From contig DATKXK010000010.1 of the NCBI GenBank assembly GCA_035529075.1, positions 62,001 through 126,000 on the forward strand: DNA of 64,000 nt, read 5' to 3'. The notes under the pieces were generated by a model. That model was not told the origin of the DNA. It searched no databases and saw only the letters and a program-made list of their open reading frames with translations. Positions 18,032 through 44,186 of the stretch are shown here, in pieces. Origin of the DNA: Acidobacteriota bacterium. GTDB lineage: Bacteria > Zixibacteria > MSB-5A5 > GN15 > FEB-12. Within the stretch, counting starts at the first letter, position 1, and every line of letters starts with the position of its first letter. Position numbers and translations under genes: made by a program.

Positions 18032-20428
18032 ATGGGTGCCGGGGAGAAGCAGAAATGGTGCAAGCGCCCAAGGTGGCGCGTGGCTGGAGTTGCGTTCGGT
18101 GCAGTATTGCTTGCTTTGCTGTTGCACGTCGGCAGTGCATCCGGCCAGGTTGAGCAGGAGCAGGACATCAGTGTCGAGTTACTCGAGGCGCTCGACAAAA
18201 CTCTTGAGAAGATCCCTGAGCAACTCAGGTCCGACGTGATTATCGAGGTCCCGGAGAATTTCGATACAATCGAAGCAGAAGTCCGCAAGCATCTTGATCA
18301 GGGTGAGTTGTTCGAACTGTCTACTCTTGTCAAGATAGGTAACGTGGAATACAGCCGGGACCGATTCGACAACGCGCTGCACTACTTCAACGTCGTTCTT
18401 GATCAAGTAGAGAACCAGGGGGGCCGGGAGGCTGTAGCGGCGGCGAGCGGTAACATCGGTCTGATTTATCGAGCCAAGAACGAACGTGACCGGGCGCTGG
18501 AGTATTTCGAGAGAGCGTTGGAGATAGATCGTGAGACTGGTTATCGTGAGGGTGAGGCGGCTCAACTGTGTAACGTCGGTCTGATCTACCAGGATAAGGG
18601 CGATGCCGAACGCGCGCTGGAGTATTACGAGAAAGCGTTGAAAATAGATCGGAAGATCGGTTGTCGCCAGGGTGAGGCGAGTGACCTGAGGAGCATTGGC
18701 AAGGTCAATTATACCGAAGGTGACCCTGACCGGATCCTGAAGTACTCCAAGAAAGCCCTGAAGATATATCGTAAGATAGGCGATCGTCTGAATGAGGCGA
18801 ATCAACTGGGCAACATTGCGCAGGTCTATCTCATGGAGGGCGATCCTGACCGCGGGCAGAAGTATCTACAGGACGCGCTGGAGATGTTCAGCGAGATCGG
18901 CTATCGTAGGGGTGTGGCGATGACTATTGGCAACATCGGTGGGGCCTACCACCAGAAAGGTGATGCTGATCGGGCGCTGAAATACTACGAAGACGCGTTG
19001 AAGATAGATCGTGAGATCGGCTATCGTAAGGGTGAGGCGCATCGACTCGCCAACATCGGTCTTGTCTATCGGGACAAAGGTGATCCTGAGCAAGCGCTGG
19101 AGTACCTGGAAGAGGCGTTGAAGATACGTCGTGAGATCGGCGATCGCGGGGGTGAGATGGTTGACCTGGCCCACGTCGCGAAGATCTATGAGGCCCAGGG
19201 TGATTACGACCGGGAGTTGGCGTATTTTGAGGCGGCAGTGGAGGCAGCTTCTGCGCTGAATTCCCGTCAGGGCGATGTGGGAATGGTAGCTGCTCTAACC
19301 AAGATCGGACTGGTCTGTCAGGTGCAGGGTGATGCCGAGCGGGCGCTAGAGTATCACCAGAGAGCGTTGAGTATACGTCGCGAGATTGGCGATCGTCTGG
19401 GTGAGGCATATGATCTGCGCGAGATCGGTCACTGTTACTACGCGAAAGGTGAATCTGACCGGGCGCTCGAGTACTACGAAAAAGCGTTGATGATGTTTCG
19501 TGAGATTGGCGATCGTTTCAATGAGGCAGCTGTTCTGAACCACATCGGCTCGGTTTTCCTTGAAGATAAGGGTGAACCTGATCGGGCGCTGGAGTATTGC
19601 GAAGAAGCACTCAAGATAGATCGTAAGATCGGCTATCGTATGGGTGAGGCGCATCGACTGGCCAACATCGGTCTTGTCTATCGGGATAAAGGTGACCCTG
19701 AGCGAGCGCTGAAGTACCTGGGAAAAGCATTGAAGATACGTCGTGAAATCGGCGATCGTCAGGGTGAGGCGCAGGACCTGTGCAACGTTGCCGACATCTA
19801 TCACGCCGGGCGTGATCCTGAACGGGCGTACGAATATCTAGTGAAAGCGTTGAATATAGGTCGTGAGATGGGCGATCGTCAGGGTGAGGCGGGTTGCCTG
19901 GGGAAGATCGGTGTGCTCTACGCTGAAGCGGGTGATCTTGACGAAGCGCTCAAGTACCATGAGGCAGCGTTGAAGATAGCTCGTGAGATCGGCGATCGTT
20001 GGGAGGAGGCGGGCCAGTTGACCAACATCGGTGTGGCCTATCGGGAAAAGAATGATCCTGACCGGGCGCTCGAGTATTACGACGAATCGCTGGGGGTATT
20101 TCGTGAGATAGGCAATCGTCACGCTGAGGCGGAGGTCTTGTGCAACATCGGTCTGATCTATCTGGATAAGAGCGATTTTGACGGCGCGGTGGAGTATGAA
20201 TCGGAAGGGTTGAAGATAGCTCGTGAGATTGGCTATCCCAAGTGTGAGGCGCTTGGCCTGGCCAACATCGGGGTGATCTACAAGGCGAAGGGGGATCCCG
20301 CGAACGCGCTGGAGTATTTGGAACAGGCCAAGGCCGTCCTCGACCGTCACGGCCTTGCACATGGGCGCGACGTCATAGAGGCCGCTCTTGCCGAGATACA
20401 CGCAGCGGAAAAGGCCGAAGGCAAGTAA
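18032..20428 (+). CDS. Large TPR-repeat protein with N-terminal signal/anchor
   Basis: A 798-residue protein. Residues 1-38 form a basic N-terminus and hydrophobic stretch (VAGVAFGAVLLALLLHVGSASG), a signal peptide or anchor, so the protein is exported to the periplasm or envelope. From about residue 105 to 775 it consists almost entirely of 17 consecutive 40-residue TPR units of the MalT/TPR_12 type (core ALEYYEKALKIDREIGYR-GEA). There is no enzymatic or DNA-binding domain, so its role is presumably protein binding. AAGGGGG lies seven bases before the ATG. It starts 24 bp after cutA and ends 3 bp before nrdR but looks unrelated to both. Confidence 0.85.
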   Translation: MGAGEKQKWCKRPRWRVAGVAFGAVLLALLLHVGSASGQVEQEQDISVELLEALDKTLEKIPEQLRSDVIIEVPENFDTIEAEVRKHLDQGELFELSTLVKIGNVEYSRDRFDNALHYFNVVLDQVENQGGREAVAAASGNIGLIYRAKNERDRALEYFERALEIDRETGYREGEAAQLCNVGLIYQDKGDAERALEYYEKALKIDRKIGCRQGEASDLRSIGKVNYTEGDPDRILKYSKKALKIYRKIGDRLNEANQLGNIAQVYLMEGDPDRGQKYLQDALEMFSEIGYRRGVAMTIGNIGGAYHQKGDADRALKYYEDALKIDREIGYRKGEAHRLANIGLVYRDKGDPEQALEYLEEALKIRREIGDRGGEMVDLAHVAKIYEAQGDYDRELAYFEAAVEAASALNSRQGDVGMVAALTKIGLVCQVQGDAERALEYHQRALSIRREIGDRLGEAYDLREIGHCYYAKGESDRALEYYEKALMMFREIGDRFNEAAVLNHIGSVFLEDKGEPDRALEYCEEALKIDRKIGYRMGEAHRLANIGLVYRDKGDPERALKYLGKALKIRREIGDRQGEAQDLCNVADIYHAGRDPERAYEYLVKALNIGREMGDRQGEAGCLGKIGVLYAEAGDLDEALKYHEAALKIAREIGDRWEEAGQLTNIGVAYREKNDPDRALEYYDESLGVFREIGNRHAEAEVLCNIGLIYLDKSDFDGAVEYESEGLKIAREIGYPKCEALGLANIGVIYKAKGDPANALEYLEQAKAVLDRHGLAHGRDVIEAALAEIHAAEKAEGK
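18340..20330 (+). repeat. Tandem 120-bp coding repeats (17 units)
   Basis: Within the TPR gene the DNA itself repeats with a 120-nt period (unit core GATCGTGAGATCGGCTATCG and GTGAGGC), with two or three slips of 3-9 nt near 19260-19560. Units at about 19000-19150 and 19610-19760 are nearly identical in DNA, suggesting duplication of a five-unit block or recent gene conversion. Confidence 0.85.
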
Positions 20429-24504: not shown

Positions 24505-24531
24505 TAAGCAGGCCCGGCTTTCGGCCGATAC
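24505..24531 (+). promoter_or_regulatory. Sigma-28-like promoter before the partner-switch operon
   Basis: TAAG (24505-24508), 15 nt, GCCGATAC (24524-24531) compares with the flagellar sigma-28 consensus TAAA-N15-GCCGATAA. The -10 box matches 7 of 8. The predicted start lies at about 24538, practically on the ATG at 24540, implying a leaderless or nearly leaderless message. Assignment is by pattern only. Confidence 0.45.
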
Positions 24532-24539
24532 ACGGTTGT

Positions 24540-25832
24540 ATGAGCGCTTTTGGCGGACCTGCGGCCGAACTGGACGAACTCGAGGCGAAACTGGCTGCGC
24601 GCACGGCACAGCTTCGCGACCTCGCCACCATGGGAACGGTGATCACCCGTATTCACGAAATAGACGCCGTTCTCTCCGTCGTCATGGATATGGCCATACG
24701 GCTGGTCGAGGGGGAGGTCGGGTTGATCATGATCGCCGAAGACGACTGCCTTCGGCCCGAGGTCTGCTGGGGGGTCAGCGAGGATTTCATCAAGTCGCTC
24801 ATCTACGAGGACGGCATCGACCTCGTGACTTACTGCCACCGGAATCGTCAGCCGGTCGTGCTGTCCGGTCTTGACCTGAGATGGGACGGCGGCATCAAGC
24901 TCGATTCCGTTATCGCCATGCCCATCCAGACGGCGGATGAATGCCTCGGCGTGATGGTGATCATTAACAAGACCAACGGCGGTGCCTATACCGACGACGA
25001 TACGGAAATTCTCAGGATGCTGCTGAATTTCGTGGCCGTGGCGATTGACAATTCACGCCTTCTGAAGGACAAGCTTGTCCGCCAGAAGATTGAGCAGGAG
25101 ATGTTGATCGCCAGGCAGGTACAGGAAACCATCCTGCCGCGAGATGACACGAAGATCGACGGGGCTGAGATCGGGGCGGTCTATTTCCCGGCCCGCGAGG
25201 TGGGGGGAGATTTCTACGACATCCTCCGGATTGACGAGCAGCGATTTCTCGTCATCCTGGGTGACGTCTCCAACAAGGGGGTGCCGGCGGCCCTGGTGAT
25301 GTCCGCGTTGTCGGGAATCGTCAAGTCGGTGATGCTCTCCGATCCTACCGTCTCGGTGGCCGAACTGGCCGGACGCCTGAACGACATTCTGGCGACCGAA
25401 ATCATCAAGGATCGCGAAATGTTCGTGACGCTGTTCTTTGCCCGTTTTGATCTGGAGGCAAAGGAACTCACCTATTGCAATGCCGGGCACGTGCCGGGCC
25501 TTTACTGGGACAGCACTACCACCCGTATCGAGGAACTGGCCAAGGGCGGCCCTATCGTCGGCCAGTTTGAGGGTATTGCGTTTACGGAGGGTCGGTGCGG
25601 GATTACCGGCGGTGATCGCCTGTTCCTCTTCACGGACGGGCTGACGGAGGCCGAGGACGCCGACCACAACCTCTTCGGGCGTGAAAGAGCGGAACAGGTC
25701 TTCGGCACCGAGATCGGTCTGGCCCCGAAGGAGTTCTGCCTGCGCGTAAAGGAATGGGTCGATCACTTCACGGAAGGGGCCTCGAAGGACTCGCAGGATG
25801 ATTTCACTGTCCTTCAGGTGAGGGTGGAATAG
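24540..25832 (+). CDS. GAF-domain PP2C (SpoIIE/RsbU-type) phosphatase
   Basis: A 430-residue protein with a short coiled coil (ELDELEAKLAARTAQL), a GAF sensor domain (about 35-170, ending AVAIDNSRLL), a helical linker with EMLIARQVQETILPRD, and a SpoIIE/PP2C phosphatase domain (about 195-428) with YFPAREVGGDFYDI and ILGDVSNKGVPAALVMS carrying the metal-binding Asp residues and LFLFTDGLTEAED near the end. Enzymes of this class dephosphorylate STAS anti-anti-sigma factors. The matching anti-sigma kinase and STAS genes follow directly, so the target is very likely the STAS protein at 26282. Start is not backed by a ribosome-binding site. Confidence 0.92.
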   Translation: MSAFGGPAAELDELEAKLAARTAQLRDLATMGTVITRIHEIDAVLSVVMDMAIRLVEGEVGLIMIAEDDCLRPEVCWGVSEDFIKSLIYEDGIDLVTYCHRNRQPVVLSGLDLRWDGGIKLDSVIAMPIQTADECLGVMVIINKTNGGAYTDDDTEILRMLLNFVAVAIDNSRLLKDKLVRQKIEQEMLIARQVQETILPRDDTKIDGAEIGAVYFPAREVGGDFYDILRIDEQRFLVILGDVSNKGVPAALVMSALSGIVKSVMLSDPTVSVAELAGRLNDILATEIIKDREMFVTLFFARFDLEAKELTYCNAGHVPGLYWDSTTTRIEELAKGGPIVGQFEGIAFTEGRCGITGGDRLFLFTDGLTEAEDADHNLFGRERAEQVFGTEIGLAPKEFCLRVKEWVDHFTEGASKDSQDDFTVLQVRVE

Positions 25833-25834
25833 TC

Positions 25835-26260
25835 GTGGCCGAGTACTCGCTGAGATACCCGTCAGTCAGCGACTCCGAGGAGCGGATGCTCGACGATCTG
25901 GATAAGATCGTGTGCGAGAACGAGATCGAAGCAGCCACCGCCCAGCCGCTTAAGCTGGCCGTGTCAGAAGCGTTCACCAACGCCCTGATTCACGGCAACC
26001 GCCAGGATTGTCGGAAACTTATCCGGATCGATCTGCGAGTGAATGAATGCGAAGTAACTGCCGATATAGCTGATCAGGGTCATGGAGGGCTGAAGCAGGT
26101 ACTGAATCGGCGGCCCCCCGCGCCGCTGGCCGAAAACGGGCGCGGCATTGACCTCATACGGCATACCACTACGGCTGCCACCTTCTGGGAGAACGAATCC
26201 GGCGGCCTGGTGGTTTCGATTCGGCTGAAACGGAATGTCAAAAGTGGAGTTAACGGCTAA
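25835..26260 (+). CDS. RsbW/SpoIIAB-like anti-sigma factor kinase
   Basis: A 141-residue GHKL ATPase. The N box is VSEAFTNALIHGNRQD, the ADP-binding region IADQGHGGL and the later NGRGIDLIRH; the family either kinases a STAS protein or binds a sigma factor. It is encoded 2 bp after the SpoIIE phosphatase and 21 bp before the STAS gene, the standard partner-switch set. No sigma factor gene is adjacent, so the client may be a distant sigma factor or a non-sigma target such as a motility or chemotaxis protein. Start is GTG. Confidence 0.9.
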   Translation: MAEYSLRYPSVSDSEERMLDDLDKIVCENEIEAATAQPLKLAVSEAFTNALIHGNRQDCRKLIRIDLRVNECEVTADIADQGHGGLKQVLNRRPPAPLAENGRGIDLIRHTTTAATFWENESGGLVVSIRLKRNVKSGVNG

Positions 26261-26281
26261 TCTCTCGATCTGGAGGACGTG

Positions 26282-26632
26282 ATGGATATCAGGACACGGG
26301 AAGAAGGCAGTGTGACCGTGCTCTATCTCAAAGGGAGGCTCGATTTGGCCAGCGGAGCGACGCTGAAAGAAGAAGTCAAAAAGCTCTTTGCCAAAGGCTG
26401 CACCCAGATCCATCTGAATCTGGCCGAGGTCGAATTCATCAACAGTTCCGGCCTGGGCTCGCTTGTCTCCGTCATGAAGGAAGTGCGTTTGCTCAAAGGC
26501 CGGCTCACCCTCTCGAATCTCGCCAGCTACGTGCAGGAGATTTTTGATATTACACAACTCTCGCACATCTTCGAGGTGTTTCCGACCGAGGAGGACGCGC
26601 TGGTTTCGTCCCAATCGGTAAGTGTGGTCTGA
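26282..26632 (+). CDS. STAS-domain anti-anti-sigma factor
   Basis: A 116-residue STAS protein of the SpoIIAA/RsbV type: VTVLYLKGRLDLASG at the N-terminus and EFINSSGLGSLVSVMKEV around the phospho-acceptor, expected Ser56 (second Ser of SSG). It would be phosphorylated by the adjacent kinase and dephosphorylated by the SpoIIE-type phosphatase. ATG at 26282 with GGAGG eight bases upstream is preferred to the GTG at 26279. Confidence 0.93.
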   Translation: MDIRTREEGSVTVLYLKGRLDLASGATLKEEVKKLFAKGCTQIHLNLAEVEFINSSGLGSLVSVMKEVRLLKGRLTLSNLASYVQEIFDITQLSHIFEVFPTEEDALVSSQSVSVV

Positions 26633-26665
26633 CGGGGCGCGCTTAGTGGCAAAAGGGGTTGACGA

Positions 26666-28573
26666 ATGAATGACGTTGTGCGACGCATCGGGGAACTTCT
26701 GGTCAGACTCCAGTCGCCGGACTACTACGACCGTGAGGACGCTGTAAAGGAGCTCGGGACATGCAGCGAGGACGACGCGGTGCACGGCCTGGTGATGGCC
26801 TTGGAAGATCCCGATCTCGGCATTCGTGAACTGGCCGCCGACTTCCTGGCCCGCATCAAGACGCCCGCCGTTTCCCAGCTCCTGATCCGGTGCCTGGCCA
26901 GTGAGGACATCGGCACGAGAAACCTTACGTGCGAGGTCCTGGTGAGAATCGGTTCGGACGCCGTGCCGGTCCTTATCGAAAGCCTGGAAAGCGACGACCG
27001 GGATGTACGCAAGTTCGTGGCTGACGTCCTGGGTCGCATCAAGGACCCGCGAGCCGTGGAACCACTGTGCGCAAGACTTGCCGACGACAGCCGCAACGTA
27101 GTCTGCTCTGCGGCAGAGGCCCTGGGCGAGATCGGTTCACCGGAGGCCGTACCGGACCTGCTGGCCGTGTGCGAGAAGACGGAAGACGCCCGCCTGCACG
27201 CCATAGAAGCGCTCGGCAAGACCGGGGACCCGGCCGTCCTGGAGCGGCTGTACGAGTACCTGGAATCCCCGGATCCCATGCTTCAGTATGCCGTGATCGA
27301 AGCTATCGGCCAGATGGGACTGGTCAGGGCCGTCGAACGACTGATACCGTTCTTCGATTCAACGGATCCGGCCATTGCCGAAGCTGCCATGTCCGCCGTC
27401 ATCACCGTAAGCGTCCGGAGCAGAGAACCGGTGGCCTGCGATCCGCCGCTTGACCGGTTCACTGATTTTCTCCTTGAAGGGATCAAGAGCCGGGACCCGG
27501 CTACAACCCACTATACACTCGATCATCTGGCTCAATGGTACGGCTCCGGCATCATGGAAGGTGTTTTCAGCGTGCTCGAGTTTGTGGATGACGACACGTT
27601 CAGGCGGGTGGTCGAAATCGTCGGCGAGATAGGCGCTCCCGCCGGGGAACTGCTGGTATCAAGGCTGTCCGTATCATCCAAGCAGCTCAAGCTGAAACTC
27701 CTTGATGCCGCTCGTCTCATCGTCGACGAGGAATTCGCCCGGCACGTAATGCCGTACGCCGAGGATGACGACCCGGAAATCCGCCAGCGCGTAGCCCACC
27801 TTCAGGGCATCTCCGGGTATGTCGGTGCCGTGCCGACGCTCAAGAAGCTCGCCCTGGACGCCAACGGCCACGTTCGTGCCGCCGCCATTGCAGCCCTCGG
27901 CTGGCTGTGCGGCGAGGAGGACGTCGATTTCATTCTGACCGGCCTTGATGACAAGTACCCGGACGTGCGCGAGGCGACGGTCGGCGCGCTCATCATTGTC
28001 GGCGGATCCAAGGTGATCGCGAAGTTCACCGCTGATCTCTACCACGAAGATACTGAGCGGCAGCGCCTGGCCGTCACCGCCCTGGGGTGGATTGGCGAAG
28101 TCGACGTGGTCGAGCCGCTGCTGCGCGCCATCAACCATCCGGATGCAGGTGTGCGCAAGTCGGCGATTAGCGCCCTGGCGCGTATCGGCAACGTCAGCGA
28201 CGTCGAACCGATTGCGCTGGCTCTCAACGATGAGAACAGCGCCGTTCGCAAGGCGGCGGTCTCGGCCCTCGTGACCCTCAGGGGCGGCTGGGCTTTTCAC
28301 CACATTCGGCCGCTGCTTGACGACCCCGACGTCTGGGTGCGGTATCATACCATCAGTGCCGTCGGCGACATCGGTGATCCCAAGTATGCCGATTACCTGA
28401 TCCCCTACCTTGACGATTCCCTGGATGTGATAAAAATCGCCACCGCCAAGGCCATGGCCGTTCTGTGCGATGAACGCGCCGTGCCGGCGCTGGCTCGCCT
28501 GACGCGAGAGAAGAACGCCGATCTCGCAGACGCCGCAAAGGTGGCCCTTACACGCATCGGAGGTACAACGTAA
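26666..28573 (+). CDS. HEAT-repeat scaffold protein
   Basis: A 635-residue all-helical protein made of about 17-19 HEAT/PBS-lyase-like repeats of roughly 31 residues (for example DRDVRKFVADVLGRIKDPRA and DAGVRKSAISALARIGNVSD), with one less regular stretch near residues 255-345. There is no signal peptide, membrane helix or enzymatic domain. Such arrays bind proteins. It lies between the STAS gene (33 bp upstream) and a response regulator, with whose ATG its stop overlaps (GTAATG), so translation is coupled. By position it is a candidate adaptor between partner switch and two-component/chemotaxis signalling. No cysteine or bilin-lyase context supports a phycobilin role. Confidence 0.85.
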   Translation: MNDVVRRIGELLVRLQSPDYYDREDAVKELGTCSEDDAVHGLVMALEDPDLGIRELAADFLARIKTPAVSQLLIRCLASEDIGTRNLTCEVLVRIGSDAVPVLIESLESDDRDVRKFVADVLGRIKDPRAVEPLCARLADDSRNVVCSAAEALGEIGSPEAVPDLLAVCEKTEDARLHAIEALGKTGDPAVLERLYEYLESPDPMLQYAVIEAIGQMGLVRAVERLIPFFDSTDPAIAEAAMSAVITVSVRSREPVACDPPLDRFTDFLLEGIKSRDPATTHYTLDHLAQWYGSGIMEGVFSVLEFVDDDTFRRVVEIVGEIGAPAGELLVSRLSVSSKQLKLKLLDAARLIVDEEFARHVMPYAEDDDPEIRQRVAHLQGISGYVGAVPTLKKLALDANGHVRAAAIAALGWLCGEEDVDFILTGLDDKYPDVREATVGALIIVGGSKVIAKFTADLYHEDTERQRLAVTALGWIGEVDVVEPLLRAINHPDAGVRKSAISALARIGNVSDVEPIALALNDENSAVRKAAVSALVTLRGGWAFHHIRPLLDDPDVWVRYHTISAVGDIGDPKYADYLIPYLDDSLDVIKIATAKAMAVLCDERAVPALARLTREKNADLADAAKVALTRIGGTT

Positions 28574-28947
28574 TGGAAAGACCCTCGATACTGGTGGTGG
28601 ACGACGAGTTGCTTATCCGTGACCTCCTGTACGACTTCTTCAGTGGCCAGGGGTGGGACATATCGGTGGCCGAAAACGGTGAACGAGCACTGGACATCCT
28701 GCGCGGTCGCAAGGTCGATCTGGTCCTGACCGACATCAAGATGCCCGAGATGGACGGATTGACCCTCACCAGCCGAGTCCACGAGACCTACCCAGGTATT
28801 CCGGTGGTCGTGATGACCGGGTATCCGTCCGTGGATTCAGCAGTCCAGGCCCTCCGCAGCAAGGTTGCCGACTACATCATCAAGCCCTTCAACATCAACC
28901 AGTTACACAAGGTAGTTATGGAGAAGCTCAAGGAGAAGGAAGGATGA
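28573..28947 (+). CDS. Single-domain response regulator
   Basis: A 124-residue receiver domain with acidic pocket VVDDE, phospho-acceptor Asp in LTDIKMPEMDG, a Thr in VVMTGYP and Lys in YIIKPF. It has no output domain. Its KMPEMDG-MTGYPS type resembles NtrC-like receivers rather than CheY. It overlaps the end of the HEAT-repeat gene, so the two proteins are made together and may interact. The partner kinase is not evident. Confidence 0.9.
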   Translation: MERPSILVVDDELLIRDLLYDFFSGQGWDISVAENGERALDILRGRKVDLVLTDIKMPEMDGLTLTSRVHETYPGIPVVVMTGYPSVDSAVQALRSKVADYIIKPFNINQLHKVVMEKLKEKEG

Positions 28948-28990
28948 TTGCCGCCGTCAAACAACGGCTGTCCTGAACATCGGGTGCGGT

Positions 28991-30013
28991 ATGCTGGCCA
29001 GTTTCGAACATGAGATTGAAATGGGTCTCGACGAATTTCGAATGATCCGTGATTTTATCCATGAAAAGAGCGGCATCTACTTCGCGGAAAACAAAATGCA
29101 CGTGGTTAAAAACCGGCTGGCCAAGAGAATGGCGGAACTCGACCTCAAGGCCGTTCGCGATTATTTCTATCGCGTCAAGTATGACGCGTCGCTTTGCGAG
29201 TTCAACCGGCTCATGGATCTCGTTACGACCAACGAAACGAGCTTCTTCCGCAATCGACCGCAGCTGCTGTCATTCTCCACGGAAATCATTCCCAGCATCC
29301 TCAAGCACAAGCAGGACAGGGGAGCCCCGCGCCGGATCAAGGTATGGTCGGCCGGTTGCTCCACGGGTGAAGAGCCTTACACTCTGGCGATTCTTCTCAA
29401 GGAGTGCTCTGAGCACCTGGACGAGTGGTCTCTGGAGATCATTGCCAACGACATATCGCAGAGAGTGCTGCGAAAGGCCCGGCTGGCTGAATATGCGGGC
29501 CCGACCCTGCACGACATTCCCAGTGACGCGCTCGGCCGTTATTTCACGCCTGCGGACGGGTCATATCGAGTCAGGCCCGAAATCAAGACGCTGGTCAAGT
29601 TCTCCCACATGAATCTCAACGACCCGAGAATGATCAGCCTGATCAGTGGCGTAGACGTCGTGTTCTGCCGTAACGTGATGGCTTATTTTTCTCATGAGGC
29701 CAAGAAACGCCTGGTCCGTGCCTTTTACAACGCGCTCCGCCCGGGGGGGTACCTCTATGTCGGCCACGCGGAGTCACTGCACGGCATCTCCAAGGCGTTC
29801 AAACTGGCCTACTTCAGAAACGCGCTGGTTTACCTCAAGGAGGCGGCCGCCGCGCCCGGCCGTGCCGCCCCCGTGCCGGCCCGCGAACTCCAGCCGGCCC
29901 GGGCCACCGTCGGCCTCGGCGGCGCCGAGCCCTGGGCCGCGGCGGGAGTCCTGAGTCCGCCGGCCGGGGTCAAACACGAGCCGGTGAACGGCGTGTCGGT
30001 GACTGGGGAATAA
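28991..30013 (+). CDS. cheR: Chemotaxis methyltransferase CheR
   Basis: A 340-residue CheR that methylates glutamates of chemoreceptors using SAM. The N-terminal helical domain (about 10-80) includes FRMIRDFIHEKSGIYF; the catalytic domain has TTNETSFFRN, KVWSAGCSTGEEPYTLAI (SAM motif I), NDISQRVLRKARLAEY and DVVFCRNVMAYF. After the core (about 280) it carries an Ala/Pro-rich tail of some 55 residues (AAAPGRAAPVPARE region), unlike the E. coli enzyme, and no pentapeptide-binding clues are readable. No receptor, cheA, cheB or cheW is present in this window, so the rest of the pathway lies elsewhere. Confidence 0.93.
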   Translation: MLASFEHEIEMGLDEFRMIRDFIHEKSGIYFAENKMHVVKNRLAKRMAELDLKAVRDYFYRVKYDASLCEFNRLMDLVTTNETSFFRNRPQLLSFSTEIIPSILKHKQDRGAPRRIKVWSAGCSTGEEPYTLAILLKECSEHLDEWSLEIIANDISQRVLRKARLAEYAGPTLHDIPSDALGRYFTPADGSYRVRPEIKTLVKFSHMNLNDPRMISLISGVDVVFCRNVMAYFSHEAKKRLVRAFYNALRPGGYLYVGHAESLHGISKAFKLAYFRNALVYLKEAAAAPGRAAPVPARELQPARATVGLGGAEPWAAAGVLSPPAGVKHEPVNGVSVTGE

Positions 30014-30024
30014 AGGTGGATTCC

Positions 30025-30396
30025 ATGAGTCGCACAATCCTCGTTGTCGATGACTCTCCGACGGTGGTGAAATTCGTGTCCTTCTCACTGAAGACCCGCG
30101 GCTACCGGGTTGTGACGGCGCGGGACGGGATGGACGCCATCGAGAAACTGTCCGCCCTGACCGACGGCGTCGATCTTATCATCACCGACCTGAACATGCC
30201 CAACCTGGACGGCTACACGTTTATTGAAGCCGTCCGTCGGAACAAGGAACATCAGGACATCCCCATTATCATACTGTCGTCGGAAGAGGGTCAGGCCGAC
30301 CGCAGCCGCGGACTCTCGGTCGGCGCAAATTCGTATCTGGTCAAACCGTTTGAGTCCGAAAGGCTTCTTAACGAAGTATCAAGGTACTTGAAATGA
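30025..30396 (+). CDS. Single-domain response regulator
   Basis: A 123-residue receiver: ILVVDDSPTVVKFVSFSL, phospho-acceptor in IITDLNMPNLDGYTF, ILSSEEG and the Lys of YLVKPFE. The SPT-V motif resembles receivers of chemotaxis and PilG/TaxR type. It lies between cheR and cheY, and may be a second CheY or a phosphate sink. The ATG at 30025 has AAGGTGG five bases upstream; a GTG at 30016 overlaps that site and is less likely. Confidence 0.9.
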   Translation: MSRTILVVDDSPTVVKFVSFSLKTRGYRVVTARDGMDAIEKLSALTDGVDLIITDLNMPNLDGYTFIEAVRRNKEHQDIPIIILSSEEGQADRSRGLSVGANSYLVKPFESERLLNEVSRYLK

Positions 30397-30441
30397 AAGC
30401 ACACCACCAAGCGGCACCGCGCAGGTATAAAAGGAGGCACC

Positions 30442-30819
30442 GTGTCTAATCTTAAGATTCTGGCGGTCGATGATAGCCCGACCATGCGGCGAATCATTGT
30501 CAACACGCTTAAGAAGGCAGGTTACCCCGACGTGACGGAAGCAACCGACGGCAAGGACGCACTGGCAAAACTCAAGGTCGACAAATTCAACTTCGTCATC
30601 ACCGATTGGAACATGCCGGAGATGGACGGCATAGCGCTCGTCACTACCTTGCGCGCAACGGAGGAATTCAGAGATCTGCCGGTCCTCATGGTCACCACCA
30701 GATCGGTCAAAGAGGACATCATGGAGGCCATGAAAGCAGGCGTCAACAATTACATTGTCAAACCCTTCACGCCTGATACCCTCAAACAGAAAATCGAGCA
30801 GATTCTCACCGGCTTATGA
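30442..30819 (+). CDS. cheY: Chemotaxis response regulator CheY
   Basis: A 125-residue CheY. It has KILAVDDSPTMRRIIVNTL, the phospho-acceptor in VITDWNMPEMDG (the W-N-MP form typical of true CheY), MVTTRSVKEDI with the Thr switch, and NYIVKPFTPDTL. It would bind FliM and the switch after phosphorylation by CheA. It is followed 21 bp later by a CheZ homologue, as in many proteobacteria. GTG start with a perfect AAGGAGG upstream. Confidence 0.93.
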   Translation: MSNLKILAVDDSPTMRRIIVNTLKKAGYPDVTEATDGKDALAKLKVDKFNFVITDWNMPEMDGIALVTTLRATEEFRDLPVLMVTTRSVKEDIMEAMKAGVNNYIVKPFTPDTLKQKIEQILTGL

Positions 30820-30840
30820 AGGTGACTGAGGAAGGACGCT

Positions 30841-31443
30841 ATGCCTGATACGGATACGACAAAGAACAAGATTCAGAAAGATGTCGCCGAGCTCTCGGCC
30901 TCTATCTTCAGGTTGGCGGACAATCTCGAGAGGCTTCGCCGCCCTCTCCTGGAGTCGCGCTACGGGGTCCCGGAAGCGGCCAACCAGCTGGGTGAAATCA
31001 GCCGTCAGACTGAGGCCGCGGCTCACCGGATGCTGGACAAGGTGGAAAAGATCACGCAGCGTGAGGAGCAGACCATCAGCGACCTGGGTGCCGTAACGGA
31101 CCTTCTCCTCCAGGAGAAAACGGACGAGATTGTCAGGCGGGTTCGTGGCGCCGTGCAACGGGCCGACGCTAACCTCAACGATGCGTACGCTATCCTTGAA
31201 GCCTTGCAGTTTCAGGACGTTACCAGCCAGCAGATGAGCCAGGCGGCAAATGAACTCGGGGAGATCGAAACGAAACTTCGAGACATTCTTGCGGCTCTTG
31301 ATTCCGGCGGCGGCGAGGCGCCCGGTTCTCTGCAGCGAGTTGAGGCGACTTCAGCACAAGAGGCCGGCTCCGCCCAACACGGTTCGAGCATGGAGCAAAA
31401 GGACATCGACAATCTGTTTGCGCAGCCCGAACGTAATCGGTAA
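30841..31443 (+). CDS. cheZ: CheZ-family CheY phosphatase
   Basis: A 200-residue, highly helical protein. The key segment LEALQFQDVTSQQM carries Asp126 and Gln130, matching the D-x3-Q catalytic pair of E. coli CheZ (D143/Q147) in FQDLTGQ. Two long helices (about 10-75 and 85-160) would form the dimeric four-helix bundle, and a linker of low complexity follows. The C-terminal peptide SMEQKDIDNLFAQ corresponds to the CheY-binding tail and also closely resembles the CheY-binding N-terminus of FliM. Placement right after cheY supports the role. It ends the signalling operon. Confidence 0.88.
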   Translation: MPDTDTTKNKIQKDVAELSASIFRLADNLERLRRPLLESRYGVPEAANQLGEISRQTEAAAHRMLDKVEKITQREEQTISDLGAVTDLLLQEKTDEIVRRVRGAVQRADANLNDAYAILEALQFQDVTSQQMSQAANELGEIETKLRDILAALDSGGGEAPGSLQRVEATSAQEAGSAQHGSSMEQKDIDNLFAQPERNR

Positions 31444-31524
31444 CAGCCCCTCGTGATCCGATCAAACGGCGCCCATCGACCGGATCGCCAGCCAGACAGC
31501 CCGCTATTTTAAGCCAAGTTTTTG

Positions 31525-31553
31525 TTGAAAACCTCGCCTGGGGTCTCTACTAT
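31525..31553 (+). promoter_or_regulatory. Sigma-70-like promoter for the kinase/activator pair
   Basis: TTGAAA (31525-31530), 17 nt, TACTAT (31548-31553), with start about 31560. It lies in the 137-bp gap after cheZ, so the master flagellar kinase and activator would be transcribed independently of the signalling operon. Confidence 0.6.
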
Positions 31554-31580
31554 CCCGCCATCGGAGGAATGGGATACTTG

Positions 31581-32936
31581 ATGACGGAAGAGCAGAACAG
31601 CGGGTTGGCGACGTCGGCCGGAACGGTTGACGAGATGGCCAGATTCACCGAGTCCTACGCGTCTTTCAATCGCATTATCAACAACTTACAGCGGCAGTAT
31701 ATCGAACTCAAGGAGGAGTTCTCGGCCCAGAACGAGCGGCTGGTGGAGACCAATCGCAAGCTCGTGGCCATGACCGCCCGCAATCTCGAGGCAACGGAAT
31801 TTCTCAACCGGATACTGGGTTCGATTTCCGCCGGTGTCATAGCCGTCGACCAGGGCGGGCGCATCACTCATTTTAATTCAGCGGCCTCGGTCATGCTCGG
31901 CATACCGATCGACAAGCCGCGGGGAGAGCATTACCGGGACGTCATCCCGCCCGGGGATCCGATTGACGCCAACGCCTTGCGCGCCGCGGAATCCGGCCGG
32001 CCGGTCGACTCCGTGGAAAAGCGCACGAACCTTCCCGACGGAACCGCCCTTCACCTCTCGGTCTCTACCGCCATTCTCTGTGATGATGAGGGCAAGCCCA
32101 ACGGTGCGGTCGAAGTTTTCCACGACCTGACCAAAGTAAAGAAGATGGAGGCGGAGATTGCCCGGCTGAACACGCTGGCGGCGCTGGGGGAAATGGCGGC
32201 CACCATCGCGCACCAAGTGCGTAATCCCCTGGCCGGCATCGGGGGGTTTGCGGCGCTTCTGAAGCGTGACATGGAATCGGATGACCCGAGGCAGAAGACG
32301 GTCGACAAGATCGTTCGCGGTGTGGAGAATCTTAACAGCACGGTCAGCGCGCTGCTGGGCTACACGCGGACCGAGGAGGTCAGGAGGGACGAGGTTGACT
32401 ACGGCGACTTTCTCAAGACTGTGATCAGGCAGTACCGTCACGAGAACGCCGAGATGGTTCCGGGGATGTTCATCCGCCTGATGATTCCGGACTCCCCGCC
32501 GGCGGTCTCGGTCGGGTTAATGATCGACCGGCAGTTGTGCCGTCAGCTCTTCTGCAACCTCCTGACGAACGCCGTTGAGGCCTGCCGGGGCAAAGGGAAC
32601 ATCACGATCTCCTATCGTAAACTTCCGCGGCAGGCCGCTGCCCGCTGGTACGGTGAGAAGGTGCTCCTGGGGCTCGAAGAGACACTGGTTGAGACGGTCG
32701 TTGCCGATAGCGGCTCGGGCATCAAGCCCGAGGCGCTGGAATCGGTGTTTTCTCCGTTCTTCACGACCAAGCAGGACGGCAACGGTCTCGGGCTTGCCGT
32801 CGCCTGGAAGATCATCAAGGCGCACGGGGGCGACATCATTGCGGAGAACATTCCCGGCGGGGGAGCCAGGTTTACGCTGCTGTTCCCCGCCAAGGTCGAT
32901 ACTGTGACCGCGGATAAGGAACGCGCGAACGAATAA
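31581..32936 (+). CDS. PAS-domain sensor histidine kinase (FleS/FlrB-like)
   Basis: A 451-residue soluble kinase without membrane segments: N-terminal coiled coil (about 20-70, NRKLVAMTARN), PAS domain (about 75-190; NRILGSISAGVIAVDQGGR), HisKA with phospho-acceptor His211 in TIAHQVRNPLAGIGGFAALL, and HATPase with LTNAVEA, DSGSGI and FFTTKQDGNGLGLAVAWK. The cytoplasmic PAS layout and the activator gene 16 bp downstream match FleS/FlrB, which controls flagellar genes through FleR/FlrC. The first in-frame ATG (31569) sits one base after GGAGG, so 31581 (or TTG 31578) is chosen. Confidence 0.9.
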   Translation: MTEEQNSGLATSAGTVDEMARFTESYASFNRIINNLQRQYIELKEEFSAQNERLVETNRKLVAMTARNLEATEFLNRILGSISAGVIAVDQGGRITHFNSAASVMLGIPIDKPRGEHYRDVIPPGDPIDANALRAAESGRPVDSVEKRTNLPDGTALHLSVSTAILCDDEGKPNGAVEVFHDLTKVKKMEAEIARLNTLAALGEMAATIAHQVRNPLAGIGGFAALLKRDMESDDPRQKTVDKIVRGVENLNSTVSALLGYTRTEEVRRDEVDYGDFLKTVIRQYRHENAEMVPGMFIRLMIPDSPPAVSVGLMIDRQLCRQLFCNLLTNAVEACRGKGNITISYRKLPRQAAARWYGEKVLLGLEETLVETVVADSGSGIKPEALESVFSPFFTTKQDGNGLGLAVAWKIIKAHGGDIIAENIPGGGARFTLLFPAKVDTVTADKERANE

Positions 32937-32952: not shown

Positions 32953-34326
32953 ATGAAGTACTCGGTTCTGATCGTTGATGACGACAGCCTGGTAAACGAG
33001 TTCCTTGTGGAAACCCTGCAGCGGGCCGACTACGAAACCGAAGCGGTTCTTTCCGGCGAGGAAGGGCTGGAAAGGTTCCGGGCGCGCCATTTCGACATCG
33101 TTCTGACCGATCTGAAGATGGACCAGATGGACGGTATCGCCCTGCTTGACAACATCAAGCAGCTGGTGCCGCAGACGGTAGTGGTTATCATGACCGCTTA
33201 CGGCACGGTTGAGACGGCCGTAACGGCCATTAAGAAAGGCGCCTACGACTTTCTGCTCAAGCCGGTTCTGCCGGAGACGCTGGAGCTGATGCTGTACCGT
33301 ATTTCCGAAACGCTCGATCTCCGAGCCGAAAACGCCCTGCTCCGCAAGGACCTTGCGCACAAGTTTCAGAACATTGTCGGCAAATCGAAGCTGATGACGG
33401 AGATATTCGATCTTGTGGAAACCGTGGCCGATGCCCGGACGACCGTCCTGCTGACGGGCGCATCCGGTACCGGCAAGGAACTCGTCGCCCGCGCCATACA
33501 TTATTCCTCCAACCGGCGCGAACGCCCGTTTGTCAAACTCAATTGCGCCGCCCTGCCCGAGAACCTCGTGGAGGCGGAACTGTTCGGCTACGAGAAGGGC
33601 GCGTTTACGGACGCCAAGAAAACCAATCGAGGTCGGTTTGAACTGGCCGACGGCGGCACTCTCCTGCTCGACGAGATCTCCGAGATGCCCCTTAACCTTC
33701 AATCCAAGCTGTTGCGGGTCATCCAGGAACGGGAGTTTGAGCGCGTCGGCTCCGCGACGACCATTTCGGTTGACGTTCGGCTTATCGCCACCACCAACCG
33801 GAATCTCAGGGAGTACATCGCGGAAGCAAGATTTCGTGAGGACCTGTACTACCGGTTGAACGTCATTCCCATATACCTTCCGCCGCTCAGGGATCGCAAA
33901 GAGGATATCCCCGTTCTGGTGGAGCACTTTATCGACAAGTACAACCGCGAGAACGACAAGGGCATCACGGGGCTCAACCGCATGGCGCTTCGCCTTCTGA
34001 TGAAGTACGATTGGCCCGGCAACGTCCGTGAGCTCGAGAACCTTTTGGAGCGGGCCGTGGTGACCACCCGCGGTGAGTACCTGACGGAGGATGATTTTCC
34101 CCCCGAGCTGGCCATTGGAAGGGTCGATGCCGGCGTACCGGGCCTCAGCGTTCCCATGAAGCTCGAGGAGGGGAGCAGGTATCTGATTCTCAAGACTCTC
34201 GAAAAGTATAACGGGAACAAGACGAAGGCAGCCGAGGCGCTCGGCATCACTACGCGTACTATCCGCAACAAGCTGGCCGAGTACCAGGTCAAGGAAAAGA
34301 CTACCGACGCACCCCTAGTCGGGTGA
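32953..34326 (+). CDS. Sigma-54 dependent response regulator (FleR/FlrC-like)
   Basis: A 457-residue NtrC-family activator: receiver (1-120, phospho-acceptor Asp53 in LTDLKMDQMDG), AAA+ domain (about 135-375; GASGTGKELVARAIH Walker A, GGTLLLDEISEMP Walker B) and a Fis-type helix-turn-helix (NKTKAAEALGITTRTIRNKL). The sigma-54 contact loop reads GAFTDA (216-221) instead of GAFTGA. Together with the kinase it probably activates the two sigma-54 promoters found upstream of flgB and flgF, only 1.7 and 10 kb away. It is followed by motAB. Confidence 0.93.
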   Translation: MKYSVLIVDDDSLVNEFLVETLQRADYETEAVLSGEEGLERFRARHFDIVLTDLKMDQMDGIALLDNIKQLVPQTVVVIMTAYGTVETAVTAIKKGAYDFLLKPVLPETLELMLYRISETLDLRAENALLRKDLAHKFQNIVGKSKLMTEIFDLVETVADARTTVLLTGASGTGKELVARAIHYSSNRRERPFVKLNCAALPENLVEAELFGYEKGAFTDAKKTNRGRFELADGGTLLLDEISEMPLNLQSKLLRVIQEREFERVGSATTISVDVRLIATTNRNLREYIAEARFREDLYYRLNVIPIYLPPLRDRKEDIPVLVEHFIDKYNRENDKGITGLNRMALRLLMKYDWPGNVRELENLLERAVVTTRGEYLTEDDFPPELAIGRVDAGVPGLSVPMKLEEGSRYLILKTLEKYNGNKTKAAEALGITTRTIRNKLAEYQVKEKTTDAPLVG

Positions 34327-34448: not shown

Positions 34449-35213
34449 ATGGACCTTGCCACCATACTCGGCATAGCTCTGGCCGTTGCAGCCATCCTGG
34501 GTGGTTACACTCTTGAGGGCGGCCATATCGATGCCTTGTTCCTGATTGCGCCGATCATAATCGTCGTTGGCGGAACGCTCGGCGCGACCATGGTAACCAC
34601 TTCTTTCAGCACCGTTCTTCAGGTTCCGCGCTACCTGCGCCTGGCCACCTTCGGCCAGGCCAGTTCGGTGGCCGGCGGTATCGAGGCGATTGTCAAGATG
34701 GCCGAGAAAGCCCGGCGGGAAGGCATTCTTGGCCTGGAACCGGATCTTGTAAGGATATCCGATCCCTTCTTCAGGAAAGCCGTGCAGCTGCTTATAGACG
34801 GCACGGAAGTCACCGTCCTGAGGGAGATTCTGGAGACGGAGATTGCCTGCAAAGAGGAGCGCCATAAGCGCGGCATCAGTTTTTTCCAGAAGGCCGGCGG
34901 TTTTTCGCCTACCCTCGGAATCCTCGGGACCGTTCTGGGGCTGGTTCACGCACTGGGCAGTACTTCTGACGCCACGAAGATGGCCACTGCCATTGCGGCT
35001 GCTTTTATTGCCACCCTGTGGGGAGTCGGACTGGCCAATCTCCTTTTCCTTCCCCTCTCCGACAAACTCCGGCTCCGCCACGAGGAGGAGATGACCTACC
35101 TGGAACTGATCACGGAAGGCATCGTCGCCATCCAGTCCGGGGACAACCCCCGCGGTATTCGGATCCGACTGCAGTCTTTCGTGGCCCCCCAGCACCGTCA
35201 GCAGGAGGGGTAA
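34449..35213 (+). CDS. motA: Flagellar motor stator protein MotA
   Basis: A 254-residue protein with four membrane helices and a large cytoplasmic loop. The first helices include TLEGGHIDALFLIAPIIIVV and GTLGATMVTTSF; the conserved proline region is PTLGILGTVLGLVHAL; the last helix is AAFIATLWGVGLANLLFLPL. It forms the proton or sodium channel with MotB encoded 3 bp downstream. LEGGHIDAL near the start is the usual PomA/MotA-type G-G motif. No charged residue in the sequence settles the coupling ion. Confidence 0.95.
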   Translation: MDLATILGIALAVAAILGGYTLEGGHIDALFLIAPIIIVVGGTLGATMVTTSFSTVLQVPRYLRLATFGQASSVAGGIEAIVKMAEKARREGILGLEPDLVRISDPFFRKAVQLLIDGTEVTVLREILETEIACKEERHKRGISFFQKAGGFSPTLGILGTVLGLVHALGSTSDATKMATAIAAAFIATLWGVGLANLLFLPLSDKLRLRHEEEMTYLELITEGIVAIQSGDNPRGIRIRLQSFVAPQHRQQEG

Positions 35214-35216
35214 CGG

Positions 35217-35960
35217 ATGCCTCGACGACGCCGGAAACTCACTGACAGCGAAAACCTTGATCGCTGGCTCCTGACCTACGCAGACCTGATCACGCTGCTG
35301 CTGGCGTTTTTCATCGTGATGTATTCCATGTCCCAGGTCGATGCCAAGCGGTTCGGCAAGGTGGCCGAAGCTCTCCACGGCGTGCTAAAGGGGGGAGACT
35401 TTGTGATAAAGCGTGACGGCGCCAGCCGCAAGACGGGCCACGGTCTGCTGGAACTGGGCAATCTCCAGATGATTCAACGGCAAGTTGAGGAACGGTTCAA
35501 AGGAGTGGGCAAACAGGACGTCATTGAAACCGAGATTACCGAGCGCGGCCTGGTCGTGCACATCGTCGAATCGGCTCTTTTCAACGAAGGAGTCGCCGAC
35601 CTGGAGCCGAGAGCCGTGGACGTGCTGGACATAATCGGCAACCAGGTACGCGGCCTGCCGAATCACATCCGGATTGAGGGTCACACCGATGATCGTCCGA
35701 TCTCCACTACCGTCTATCCATCGAACTGGGAGCTTTCCTCGGCCCGGGCCACCGAGGTGGTGCGGTATCTTCTGGACGGCCAGTCGATTTCTCCGGATCG
35801 CATTTCGGCCCTGGGGTACGGCGAATACCGTCCCGTGCGGCGCAATAATTCCATTGAAAACCGGGCCGCCAACCGGCGGGTCGACATCGTAATCCTGACC
35901 ATGGAGCTCACCCTCAAGGAGCCGACCTCACAACTGTACTGGGTAACCCGTCAGCAGTAA
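35217..35960 (+). CDS. motB: Flagellar motor stator protein MotB
   Basis: A 247-residue protein with a basic N-terminus, one membrane helix with the ion-carrying Asp in LTYADLITLLLAFFIVMY, a plug/linker, and an OmpA-like peptidoglycan-binding domain (about 125-230) with RIEGHTDDRPI, NWELSSARATEVVRYL and NRAANRRVDIVIL. Size is typical. It anchors MotA to the cell wall. Confidence 0.95.
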   Translation: MPRRRRKLTDSENLDRWLLTYADLITLLLAFFIVMYSMSQVDAKRFGKVAEALHGVLKGGDFVIKRDGASRKTGHGLLELGNLQMIQRQVEERFKGVGKQDVIETEITERGLVVHIVESALFNEGVADLEPRAVDVLDIIGNQVRGLPNHIRIEGHTDDRPISTTVYPSNWELSSARATEVVRYLLDGQSISPDRISALGYGEYRPVRRNNSIENRAANRRVDIVILTMELTLKEPTSQLYWVTRQQ

Positions 35961-36080: not shown

Positions 36081-36096
36081 TGGCACTTCCCTTGCA
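36081..36096 (+). promoter_or_regulatory. Sigma-54 promoter of the flgB operon
   Basis: TGGCAC (36081-36086), 5 nt, TTGCA (36092-36096) is a complete match to the -24/-12 consensus TGGCAC-N5-TTGCW, with GG and GC 12 nt apart. The expected start is about 36106, leaving a 29-nt leader before the flgB ATG. Confidence 0.9.
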
Positions 36097-42379: not shown

Positions 42380-42901
42380 ATGAAGAGGTTCAAGTACCGT
42401 CTTCAACCCCTGCTCAACGTCAAATCGCACCTCGAAAAACAGCGACAGAAGGAACACGCCCGGGCAAGCGAGAAGGTCATGCATCAGAAGGATCTCCTGG
42501 CCGGGATATATGCCGAGCGTGATGCCACCGCCGAGACTCAGAAAGCCCGGATGATCGGCCGGATATCGATCTCCGGACTGCTCGTCTGCTCACGGTATCT
42601 GCTGAAGCTCAGGCGCGATACGCTGGCCGGAATCGAACTGTTGCGCGGACTGGAAAAGGCGGCCGAAGAGAGACGCCTGGCCCTGGTCAAAGCCTCGAAA
42701 GAACGGAGAATCTACGAGAAGCTTCGCGAACGCCAGCGGGCGAAGTACTTCAAGGAACTGGCTCGACAGGAGAGAAACGAAAGCGACGAAATAGCGGGCA
42801 ATACCTTCCGCCTTCACAGCGGCAAATCGTCCGGGTCTCGCGGGGGGCGTGAAGTCGCGGCGGGCAAGACGCCGGCCACGTCTTCGGAATCTACTTCATA
42901 A
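42380..42901 (+). CDS. fliJ: Flagellar export chaperone FliJ
   Basis: A 173-residue, strongly helical coiled-coil protein, starting MKRFKYRLQPLLNVKSHLEKQ, the FliJ hallmark (F-x-LQPLL), with a second helix around AGIELLRGLEKAAEERRLAL. The C-terminal 25 residues (SGSRGGREVAAGKTPATSS) are low-complexity. It stimulates FliI and links it to FlhA. The start is the ATG at 42380, 11 bp after fliI. Its 3' end overlaps the convergent minus-strand gene by 11 bp. In most genomes fliK and flgD would follow; they are absent here. Confidence 0.88.
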   Translation: MKRFKYRLQPLLNVKSHLEKQRQKEHARASEKVMHQKDLLAGIYAERDATAETQKARMIGRISISGLLVCSRYLLKLRRDTLAGIELLRGLEKAAEERRLALVKASKERRIYEKLRERQRAKYFKELARQERNESDEIAGNTFRLHSGKSSGSRGGREVAAGKTPATSSESTS

Positions 42902-44186
42902 GAACCATCTTCCGGCTGGTCGTGTAGGCGTCGGTGACCAGGCGGTAAAAGTACACGCCGGAAGCAAGCGGCTGACCGGAATCCGAATGAGCGTCGAATT
43001 CTACTTCGTGAACTCCCGCCGCCATCTGCCGGTCTACCAGCCGTCGCACTCTCCGGCCAAGCACGTTGAACACGTCTATCCGCACGCGGTTGGAGGTCGG
43101 CAGGCTGAACTGAATCAGCGTAGTGGGGTTGAACGGATTCGGATAATTCTGGGCCAGCGCATACTGTGACGGCAGGGGGTGGTCATCAACAGCGTCGTCC
43201 ACGTCGGTCGGCAGACGGATCTCAACGTATCCCGCCGTGAACAGGGGGGTAAAGGTGATATCGCCGGCCGCCGGCGTGCGCGTCACGGTGGTGTGCACGA
43301 CACCGGCAAAGGCCGTGGTGTCTATCTTTATGATAGTGTCCGGGGCCAGCGGGTCGATGGTGAAGTAGAGGCTGGCAATGATCCCGCTGCCGGCCGGAAG
43401 AGGGTCGGCCTCGTAGAACGAGAGACGCAGTATCAATTCGGAGGACTCGTTCTGATTCTGAACCGGCTGGCTGTTGCTGTACGGCGGCAACGGCCGGGTC
43501 TGCTGAAACGACACGGAGTCGTACTGCAGGTAGGGAGATCCGTAGTCCAGGGCCACCGTGACGTTCGCAACATCGTCTTCGTTGAAGAAGTTGACGTCGA
43601 GTGCAATCGTCTGTCCTCGCTCGCCGGCCGTGTCGGTTATCCAGACGCTGTCAAAGGCCACCGGGGCTTCGCGGATAATGAGGCGGCCCGGCACGAACTG
43701 AGGTACGAAAGCGTCGAACGCATCGTCGGTAAACGAAGTGCCCCGGGTGATGGAGCCTTCAATAATCGTCGTTGAGTCGATTAGGACGACCTGCGGTGAT
43801 ATGCTCGACGGATACGACAGGAAGAGATGCCCGAGCAACCCGGTCGCCGGTGGGATACCGTCAAAGGCATATACGGAGATCGCGGTTGAATCTCTGTTGA
43901 AACTGGCGCCCCTGAAATCTGAATCTTCAAGCCGGCCGCCCAGAAACGAGAACGAGTCAATAGCGACCTGCGGGGAGTTGGGCTTCAGCGTGATCTCGAC
44001 TCCCGACAGCAATTCATCGTTCAGGAAACGAATCGGCACGACGCCTATTCCCGACGTATATGCCACCGCGGAGTCGACCCAGACGGTGTCTGGCAGGTTG
44101 GGGTCCGTCCCCTGGGTCCAGGCGGTAGAAGTCATCGTCAGCGAGCCGATTAAGACGAGCAACCATATCCGAATTGTTCTGTTCAT
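42891..44186 (-). CDS. Secreted protein with C-terminal sorting (T9SS-type) domain
   Basis: A 431-residue secreted protein: signal peptide (IRIWLLVLIGSLTMTSTAW), two roughly 150-residue beta-rich repeats that look cohesin-like (first from VPIRFLNDELLSGVEITL; second from IALDVNFFNEDDVANVTVAL), and a C-terminal 85-residue domain beginning YALAQNYPNPFNPTTLIQF and ending ASGVYFYRLVTDAYTTSRKMVLMK, the FlgD-Ig/T9SS type A sorting-domain pattern. Exported and cell-surface fate is inferred from that. Start is M at 44186, because the longer frame lacks the signal start. It lies alone on the minus strand between two flagellar operons and is of unknown role. Confidence 0.85.
   Translation of the reverse strand: MNRTIRIWLLVLIGSLTMTSTAWTQGTDPNLPDTVWVDSAVAYTSGIGVVPIRFLNDELLSGVEITLKPNSPQVAIDSFSFLGGRLEDSDFRGASFNRDSTAISVYAFDGIPPATGLLGHLFLSYPSSISPQVVLIDSTTIIEGSITRGTSFTDDAFDAFVPQFVPGRLIIREAPVAFDSVWITDTAGERGQTIALDVNFFNEDDVANVTVALDYGSPYLQYDSVSFQQTRPLPPYSNSQPVQNQNESSELILRLSFYEADPLPAGSGIIASLYFTIDPLAPDTIIKIDTTAFAGVVHTTVTRTPAAGDITFTPLFTAGYVEIRLPTDVDDAVDDHPLPSQYALAQNYPNPFNPTTLIQFSLPTSNRVRIDVFNVLGRRVRRLVDRQMAAGVHEVEFDAHSDSGQPLASGVYFYRLVTDAYTTSRKMVLMK

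Follow-up and report, generated by a model that had tools for sequence, protein, structure and literature searches.

The locus and its gene families

We analysed a 64,000-nucleotide stretch of DNA (the window, from whose first letter all positions are counted) from the genome of an uncultured member of Candidatus Zixiibacteriota, the assembly of which comprises 3.04 Mb and is 100% complete. Our subject is a run of genes in which a putative partner switch stands ahead of chemotaxis genes, a two-component pair and flagellar genes, all on the plus strand. The switch consists of three genes. The first (24540..25832) encodes a 430-residue serine phosphatase of the SpoIIE/PP2C type that carries a GAF domain (PF07228, 1.1e-41; PF01590); this protein, hereafter PP2C, has conserved catalytic Asp residues and an ortholog in 54 of 61 relatives. 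It is followed by a 141-residue serine kinase resembling SpoIIAB and RsbW (KIN; 25835..26260; PF13581, HATPase_c_2), which matches SpoIIAB structures and in which E45, N49, D80, G82, G102 and G104 are conserved. The third gene (26279..26632) encodes a 117-residue STAS protein of the anti-sigma-antagonist kind that scores above the cut-off of TIGR00377 and was aligned with SpoIIAA; S56 and S57 are conserved, and Ser56 is the predicted phospho-acceptor. Judged by families and conserved residues, the locus appears to hold the phosphatase, the serine kinase and the STAS phospho-serine of an Rsb-type switch. No cognate sigma factor was found in the operon; FliA is encoded on another contig of the host genome.

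Six further open reading frames (ORFs) follow: a HEAT-repeat solenoid of 635 residues (26666..28573; PF13646, 1.9e-82), a single-domain receiver, RR1 (28573..28947; PF00072), whose residues D10, D11, D54, T82 and K104 are conserved across 48 orthologs, the only CheR methyltransferase of the genome (28991..30013; PF01739, 2.5e-58), a second single-domain receiver, RR2 (30016..30396; PF00072), CheY (30442..30819; PF00072), for which CheY is the best NCBIfam model and the active site is conserved, and a CheZ-like phosphatase (30841..31443). The last is a weak match to PF04344 (33.2 bits against a cut-off of 30.7) and has conserved D126 and Q130. A sequence-only reading of this DNA had described these nine genes as lying head to tail; the ORF list, Pfam and NCBIfam bore out its coordinates and families, as well as the short gaps or overlaps between genes. 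That reading closed the cluster at CheZ, which was too early. After a gap of 126 bp the run goes on with a PAS histidine kinase of the NtrB type, assigned from its domain families (31569..32936), an NtrC-type sigma-54 activator with receiver, AAA and Fis helix-turn-helix domains (32953..34326; PF00158, 4.2e-72), MotA (34449..35213; PF01618, PF20560), MotB (35217..35960; PF13677) and flagellar genes to the end of the window.

Between MotB and FlgB, before flgB, there is an exact match to a sigma-54 -24/-12 promoter, TGGCACTTCCCTTGCA, on the plus strand (36081..36096). In 21 of 23 loci such a site, with 0-2 mismatches, lies at the corresponding place 109-151 bp downstream of MotB; its probability by chance is about 3e-4 per locus (up to one mismatch, 25 positions). 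No sigma-54 or sigma-28 site was found before the phosphatase gene, and the sigma-70-like match that precedes NtrB (31525-31553) is no better than chance would give. The locus thus combines an NtrB/NtrC pair with a sigma-54 site at a flagellar operon, the features of an FlrBC-like flagellar two-component pair. As the flgB site is conserved and the linkage of NtrBC to the locus is constant, NtrBC is very probably a flagellar regulator like FlrBC or FleSR, and it would be the simplest target to assume for the switch.

Gene order and co-occurrence with the flagellum

We compared 58 loci, from 12 families, that have STAS and NtrB on one contig. Many of the comparison genomes are fragmented metagenome-assembled genomes, and as they are related to one another the tallies do not amount to independent tests. 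The order STAS, HEAT where present, RR1 and, further on, NtrB was found in 58 of 58 loci. KIN and STAS form a single ORF in 12 loci, as do PP2C and KIN in five, and these natural fusions suggest that the parts of the switch are tied together. NtrBC is followed by MotAB in 30 loci. Of the 58 loci, 30 contain HEAT and 28 contain CheR, the latter never without HEAT. In 27 loci there is neither HEAT nor CheR/CheA/CheB, and some of these retain only CheY or CheZ; many loci with the switch lack CheY. Because STAS-RR1-NtrB persists in these 27 loci, the switch appears to be independent of the che genes. As part of our best explanation, for which we see about an even chance, HEAT and CheR-RR2-CheY-CheZ-CheA-CheB would form a separable, optional chemotaxis block between the switch and NtrBC. 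The sequence-only reading had named the synteny of STAS, HEAT, RR1 and CheR as its own check. Many Zixibacteria do show that order, yet HEAT and CheR disappear jointly and leave STAS-RR1-NtrB in place.

Two observations concern the set of loci itself. Many relatives have, after RR1, an extra receiver that is missing from the window and is degenerate in some of them (L033:8992-9459, L040:11289-11777, L044:11323-11760). Additionally, one locus labelled Calditrichaeota (L097) is typical of Zixibacteria, and its label is probably wrong.

The switch also goes with the flagellum. In a hand count of the phylum at an ortholog cut of E 1e-16, STAS orthologs occurred in 75 of 77 FliG-bearing genomes compared with 7 of 20 FliG-less ones (Fisher p ~1.5e-9, uncorrected for kinship), so that STAS and the flagellum are jointly absent from 13 of the 20 FliG-less genomes. 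In one of the two FliG-positive exceptions, G033, the contig is broken at the locus. Of 38 good genomes in the order, 37 have a PP2C ortholog and 37 have FliG, the one genome with neither being G051. Four genomes (G097, G104, G105 and G106), in which no FliG was found, nevertheless retain STAS-RR1-NtrB-NtrC. MotA and MotB are gone from their place in these four, and three of them have lost PP2C and KIN as well. Such genomes point to NtrBC, rather than the motor, as the partner of STAS and RR1. The suggestion of the sequence-only reading that the switch gates motility signalling fits the motility locus, the phylum-wide synteny and the presence of STAS in nearly all FliG-bearing genomes; gating of chemotaxis does not fit the 27 loci without HEAT or CheR/CheA. 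The switch probably controls the making or use of the flagellum, not chemotaxis.

The chemotaxis genes and the HEAT protein

CheA, CheB, CheW, a receptor and a sigma factor had been noted as missing from the locus, and for CheA, CheW and the receptor we can extend this absence to the whole host genome. There were no matches genome-wide to the CheW domain (PF01584), the signalling domain of methyl-accepting chemotaxis proteins (MCPs; PF00015) or the Hpt domain (PF01627). A genome with no CheW domain has neither CheA nor CheW. CheB was not found at the locus, and no genome-wide search for it was made. With CheA, CheW and MCP, which together define a chemotaxis (Che) system, all absent, chemotaxis proper is lost in the host genome. 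The zero counts for Hpt and CheW domains rule out a CheA hidden elsewhere, including as a mini-CheA. An assembly gap is ruled out by CheZ and NtrB being contiguous on a 545-kb contig. The gap between these two genes (31444..31568, no strand) is the site that CheA (~590 residues) and CheB occupy in most HEAT-bearing relatives. On a tree built from concatenated neighbours, the local CheA was lost on several separate branches; G027, the closest sampled relative, retains it.

Altered forms of CheA occur in a few relatives. In G015 and G017 the remnant is a mini-CheA of 309 residues with Hpt and HATPase domains only and without a dimerisation or CheW domain (L043:13227-14156; L054); both genomes lack CheW domains and MCPs. 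In G024 a single ORF of 775 residues (L056:735-3062) joins CheZ-like and CheA sequences, the CheZ part being weak at 15.3 bits.

What the host retains is its single CheR, two extra receivers, CheY and CheZ. CheR, CheY and CheZ are all present in the window with intact catalytic residues, and we reject the idea that they are pseudogenes. The host FliM also keeps the CheY-docking motif LSQEEIDALL. Together, this motif and the intact catalytic residues suggest that CheY may still reach the motor, where it could perhaps act via FliM although CheA is gone. A literature search on CheA-less CheY systems gave nothing directly relevant. We measured evolutionary rates as the mean identity of each host protein with a panel of 12 relatives. 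CheR (0.558 compared with 0.660 for the panel, standard deviation (sd) 0.009), CheY (0.779 compared with 0.833, sd 0.014) and CheZ (0.386 compared with 0.510, sd 0.018) have evolved faster in the host. For PP2C, KIN, STAS, RR1, RR2 and NtrB the value falls inside the panel spread or exceeds it, and for HEAT it is slightly under the panel mean (0.549 compared with 0.564, sd 0.017). That the host CheR, CheY and CheZ are remnants or have been retuned belongs to the same best explanation, which may as well be wrong as right. Within the panel, STAS has an identity of 0.68 and KIN, the least conserved part of the switch, one of 0.39, as if STAS, rather than KIN, carried the conserved output.

The AlphaFold model of the HEAT protein is, with confidence, an all-helical solenoid of 38 helices (predicted local distance difference test score, pLDDT, 92.5). 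A fold search returned generic HEAT solenoids only (among them SF3B1, karyopherins and PP2A-A) and was uninformative for function. Full-length homologs with ~24-31% identity occur in Nitrospirota, Desulfuromonadales/Geobacter and other groups. In these phyla most of them are encoded immediately upstream of CheR, commonly of a CheR-CheB pair, within che clusters, and we recognised no switch genes in their neighbourhood. In Geobacter and other Desulfuromonadales, for instance, the homolog immediately precedes cheR-cheB and, unlike in the window, there is no partner switch; HEAT goes unmentioned in a 2008 survey of the che clusters of Geobacter. Because these homologs adjoin CheR and are free of the switch, the most probable reading of HEAT is as a chemotaxis protein of older origin, linked to CheR, which in Zixibacteria stands between STAS and RR1. 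Our literature search on HEAT proteins next to bacterial CheR gave nothing directly relevant. HEAT is nevertheless retained in G000, G015, G023, G053 and G078, which lack a genomic CheW domain or a local CheR, and a secondary role of HEAT is therefore possible. In G047 we observed an 869-residue HEAT ORF with an extra ClpC-like N-terminus (L052:560-3169), which is probably an assembly chimera.

The output of the switch

Based on these comparisons, we propose that the PP2C-KIN-STAS switch feeds the flagellar NtrBC/sigma-54 circuit, its presumed target, and that the che block is separable from it; we regard this proposal as being about as likely to hold as to fail. By default, KIN would phosphorylate STAS at Ser56. 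When the GAF domain senses its signal, PP2C would become active and remove the phosphate from Ser56. Free STAS, together with RR1, would then alter the kinase activity of NtrB, and this would change the expression, driven by NtrC, of flgB and the genes downstream. HEAT would serve CheR and chemotaxis, not the switch. More tentatively, free STAS and RR1 could control NtrB/NtrC directly. The output of the switch would then be the sigma-54 pair, in a phylum-wide unit that in some lineages has outlived the flagellum and its PP2C/KIN neighbours.

Several points weigh against this proposal. Synteny of STAS-RR1-NtrBC is not contact, and contact between the partners is inferred from it. A single transcript for the switch and NtrBC is assumed from gene spacing. 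Four loci have STAS-RR1-NtrBC with no PP2C/KIN adjoining, and in these the switch may be dispensable. Last, the genome encodes FliA and has a weakly FlgM-like ORF, so that an output through sigma-28 is possible.

This sigma-28 output is the main rival, and we consider it possible but rather unlikely. Here, the switch would control FliA, with KIN as its anti-sigma factor or with STAS sequestering FlgM. The latter has a precedent in Pseudomonas aeruginosa: there HsbA binds FlgM once it has lost its phosphate, and the pathway is encoded in a flagellar region that also contains cheW and cheR (PMC5085249). FliA is present in the genome, the switch co-occurs with flagella and a FlgM-like ORF lies just beyond the window. 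However, that ORF scores 15.1 bits, which is below the cut-off, and it matched no family in further profile searches; fliA and flgM are unlinked to the switch whereas NtrBC is always linked; the low conservation of KIN would be unexpected for a binder of a conserved sigma factor; and STAS-RR1-NtrBC persists in FliG-less genomes. The idea that KIN replaces FlgM as the anti-sigma factor of FliA is weakened by FlgM-like ORFs, mostly below the cut-off, near the flagellar genes here and in several relatives. Around ~800-2000 bp beyond the window end (L167:1772-3009), the weak FlgM-like ORF is followed by an HDOD-like protein and preceded by FliS-like and FlgN-like ORFs.

It is improbable that the switch gates chemotaxis with HEAT joining the STAS/kinase pair to RR1, as the sequence-only reading supposed. 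The overlap of the HEAT and RR1 genes, the gene order kept in many Zixibacteria and the genomes that keep HEAT without a CheW domain or local CheR are in its favour. So is an archaeal protein, OE2401F of Halobacterium salinarum, on which motor switching depends and which links Che proteins to the motor (PMC2666748). OE2401F is likewise a pure HEAT-repeat (HEAT_PBS) protein in a che region, but it serves an archaeal motor and adjoins CheF rather than CheR; we take it as a lead from a possibly comparable protein. Against such a joint, HEAT keeps company with CheR both within the phylum and beyond it, is missing from the 27 loci that keep STAS-RR1-NtrB, and has homologs elsewhere with no switch beside them; furthermore, CheR, CheY and CheZ drift in the host and the switch does not. 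The joint is therefore unsupported.

Still more doubtful is an output at the motor, in which RR1 or CheY would act on MotA/MotB, or CheY at FliM, and not on transcription. MotAB do follow NtrBC in about half of the loci and FliM keeps its docking motif though CheA is gone, but MotAB are not beside STAS-RR1-NtrBC in FliG-less genomes and CheY is missing from many switch-bearing loci. As judged from gene order, a chance neighbourhood is excluded by conservation in dozens of genomes. It is very improbable that the switch acts on something unrelated and stands in this locus only through its history: parts of the switch locus do survive in some FliG-less genomes, but the order is unbroken across all 12 families and the joint absence with the flagellum speaks against it.

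Two other proteins of the window may be recorded here. A 798-residue protein made almost wholly of repeats like tetratricopeptide repeats is encoded upstream of NrdR (18032-20428), and within the flagellar locus a minus-strand gene (42891-44213) encodes a protein whose C-terminus resembles a sorting signal in the style of type IX secretion.

Related systems and significance

The nearest known case is the HptB-HsbR-HsbA-FlgM/HsbD pathway of P. aeruginosa, which the window switch would resemble in the broad lines of its working. Both systems have a PP2C phosphatase, a HATPase kinase and a STAS protein with a phospho-serine at position 56 (predicted in the window), and both are set among flagellar genes that include cheR. 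No HsbR-type receiver-PP2C-HATPase protein fed by Hpt was found; phosphatase and kinase are fused, as in HsbR, in some relatives of the window, where they are separate genes. The input in the window is a GAF domain rather than a receiver, the genome has no Hpt domain, and the constant neighbours are RR1 and NtrBC, not flgM. The SpoIIE/SpoIIAB/SpoIIAA and RsbU/RsbW/RsbV systems of Bacillus share the domain set and catalytic residues; in contrast, the window operon has no sigma factor and is joined to a sigma-54 two-component pair. In Vibrio fischeri, SypA is a STAS protein under kinase/phosphatase control, but SypE is one multi-domain protein and the locus is one for biofilm polysaccharide. The syp locus also contains a sigma-54 activator, SypG. 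Finally, FlrBC, FleSR and FlgSR resemble NtrBC in pairing a PAS kinase with a receiver-AAA-Fis activator, and a sigma-54 promoter before flgB is a further shared feature; they differ in that loci of the window type have STAS and a single receiver ahead at every locus examined.

Our analysis identifies the HEAT protein as a CheR-linked chemotaxis component of several phyla. In a host with CheR, CheY and CheZ but without CheA or a receptor, the phosphate source of CheY and the substrate of CheR become testable. Partner switches are mostly known as controllers of sigma factors, and a phylum-wide STAS-receiver-NtrBC unit, if true, would extend them to sigma-54 flagellar control. The repeated loss of the neighbouring che genes amounts to a natural experiment in which flagellar regulation can be viewed apart from chemotaxis.

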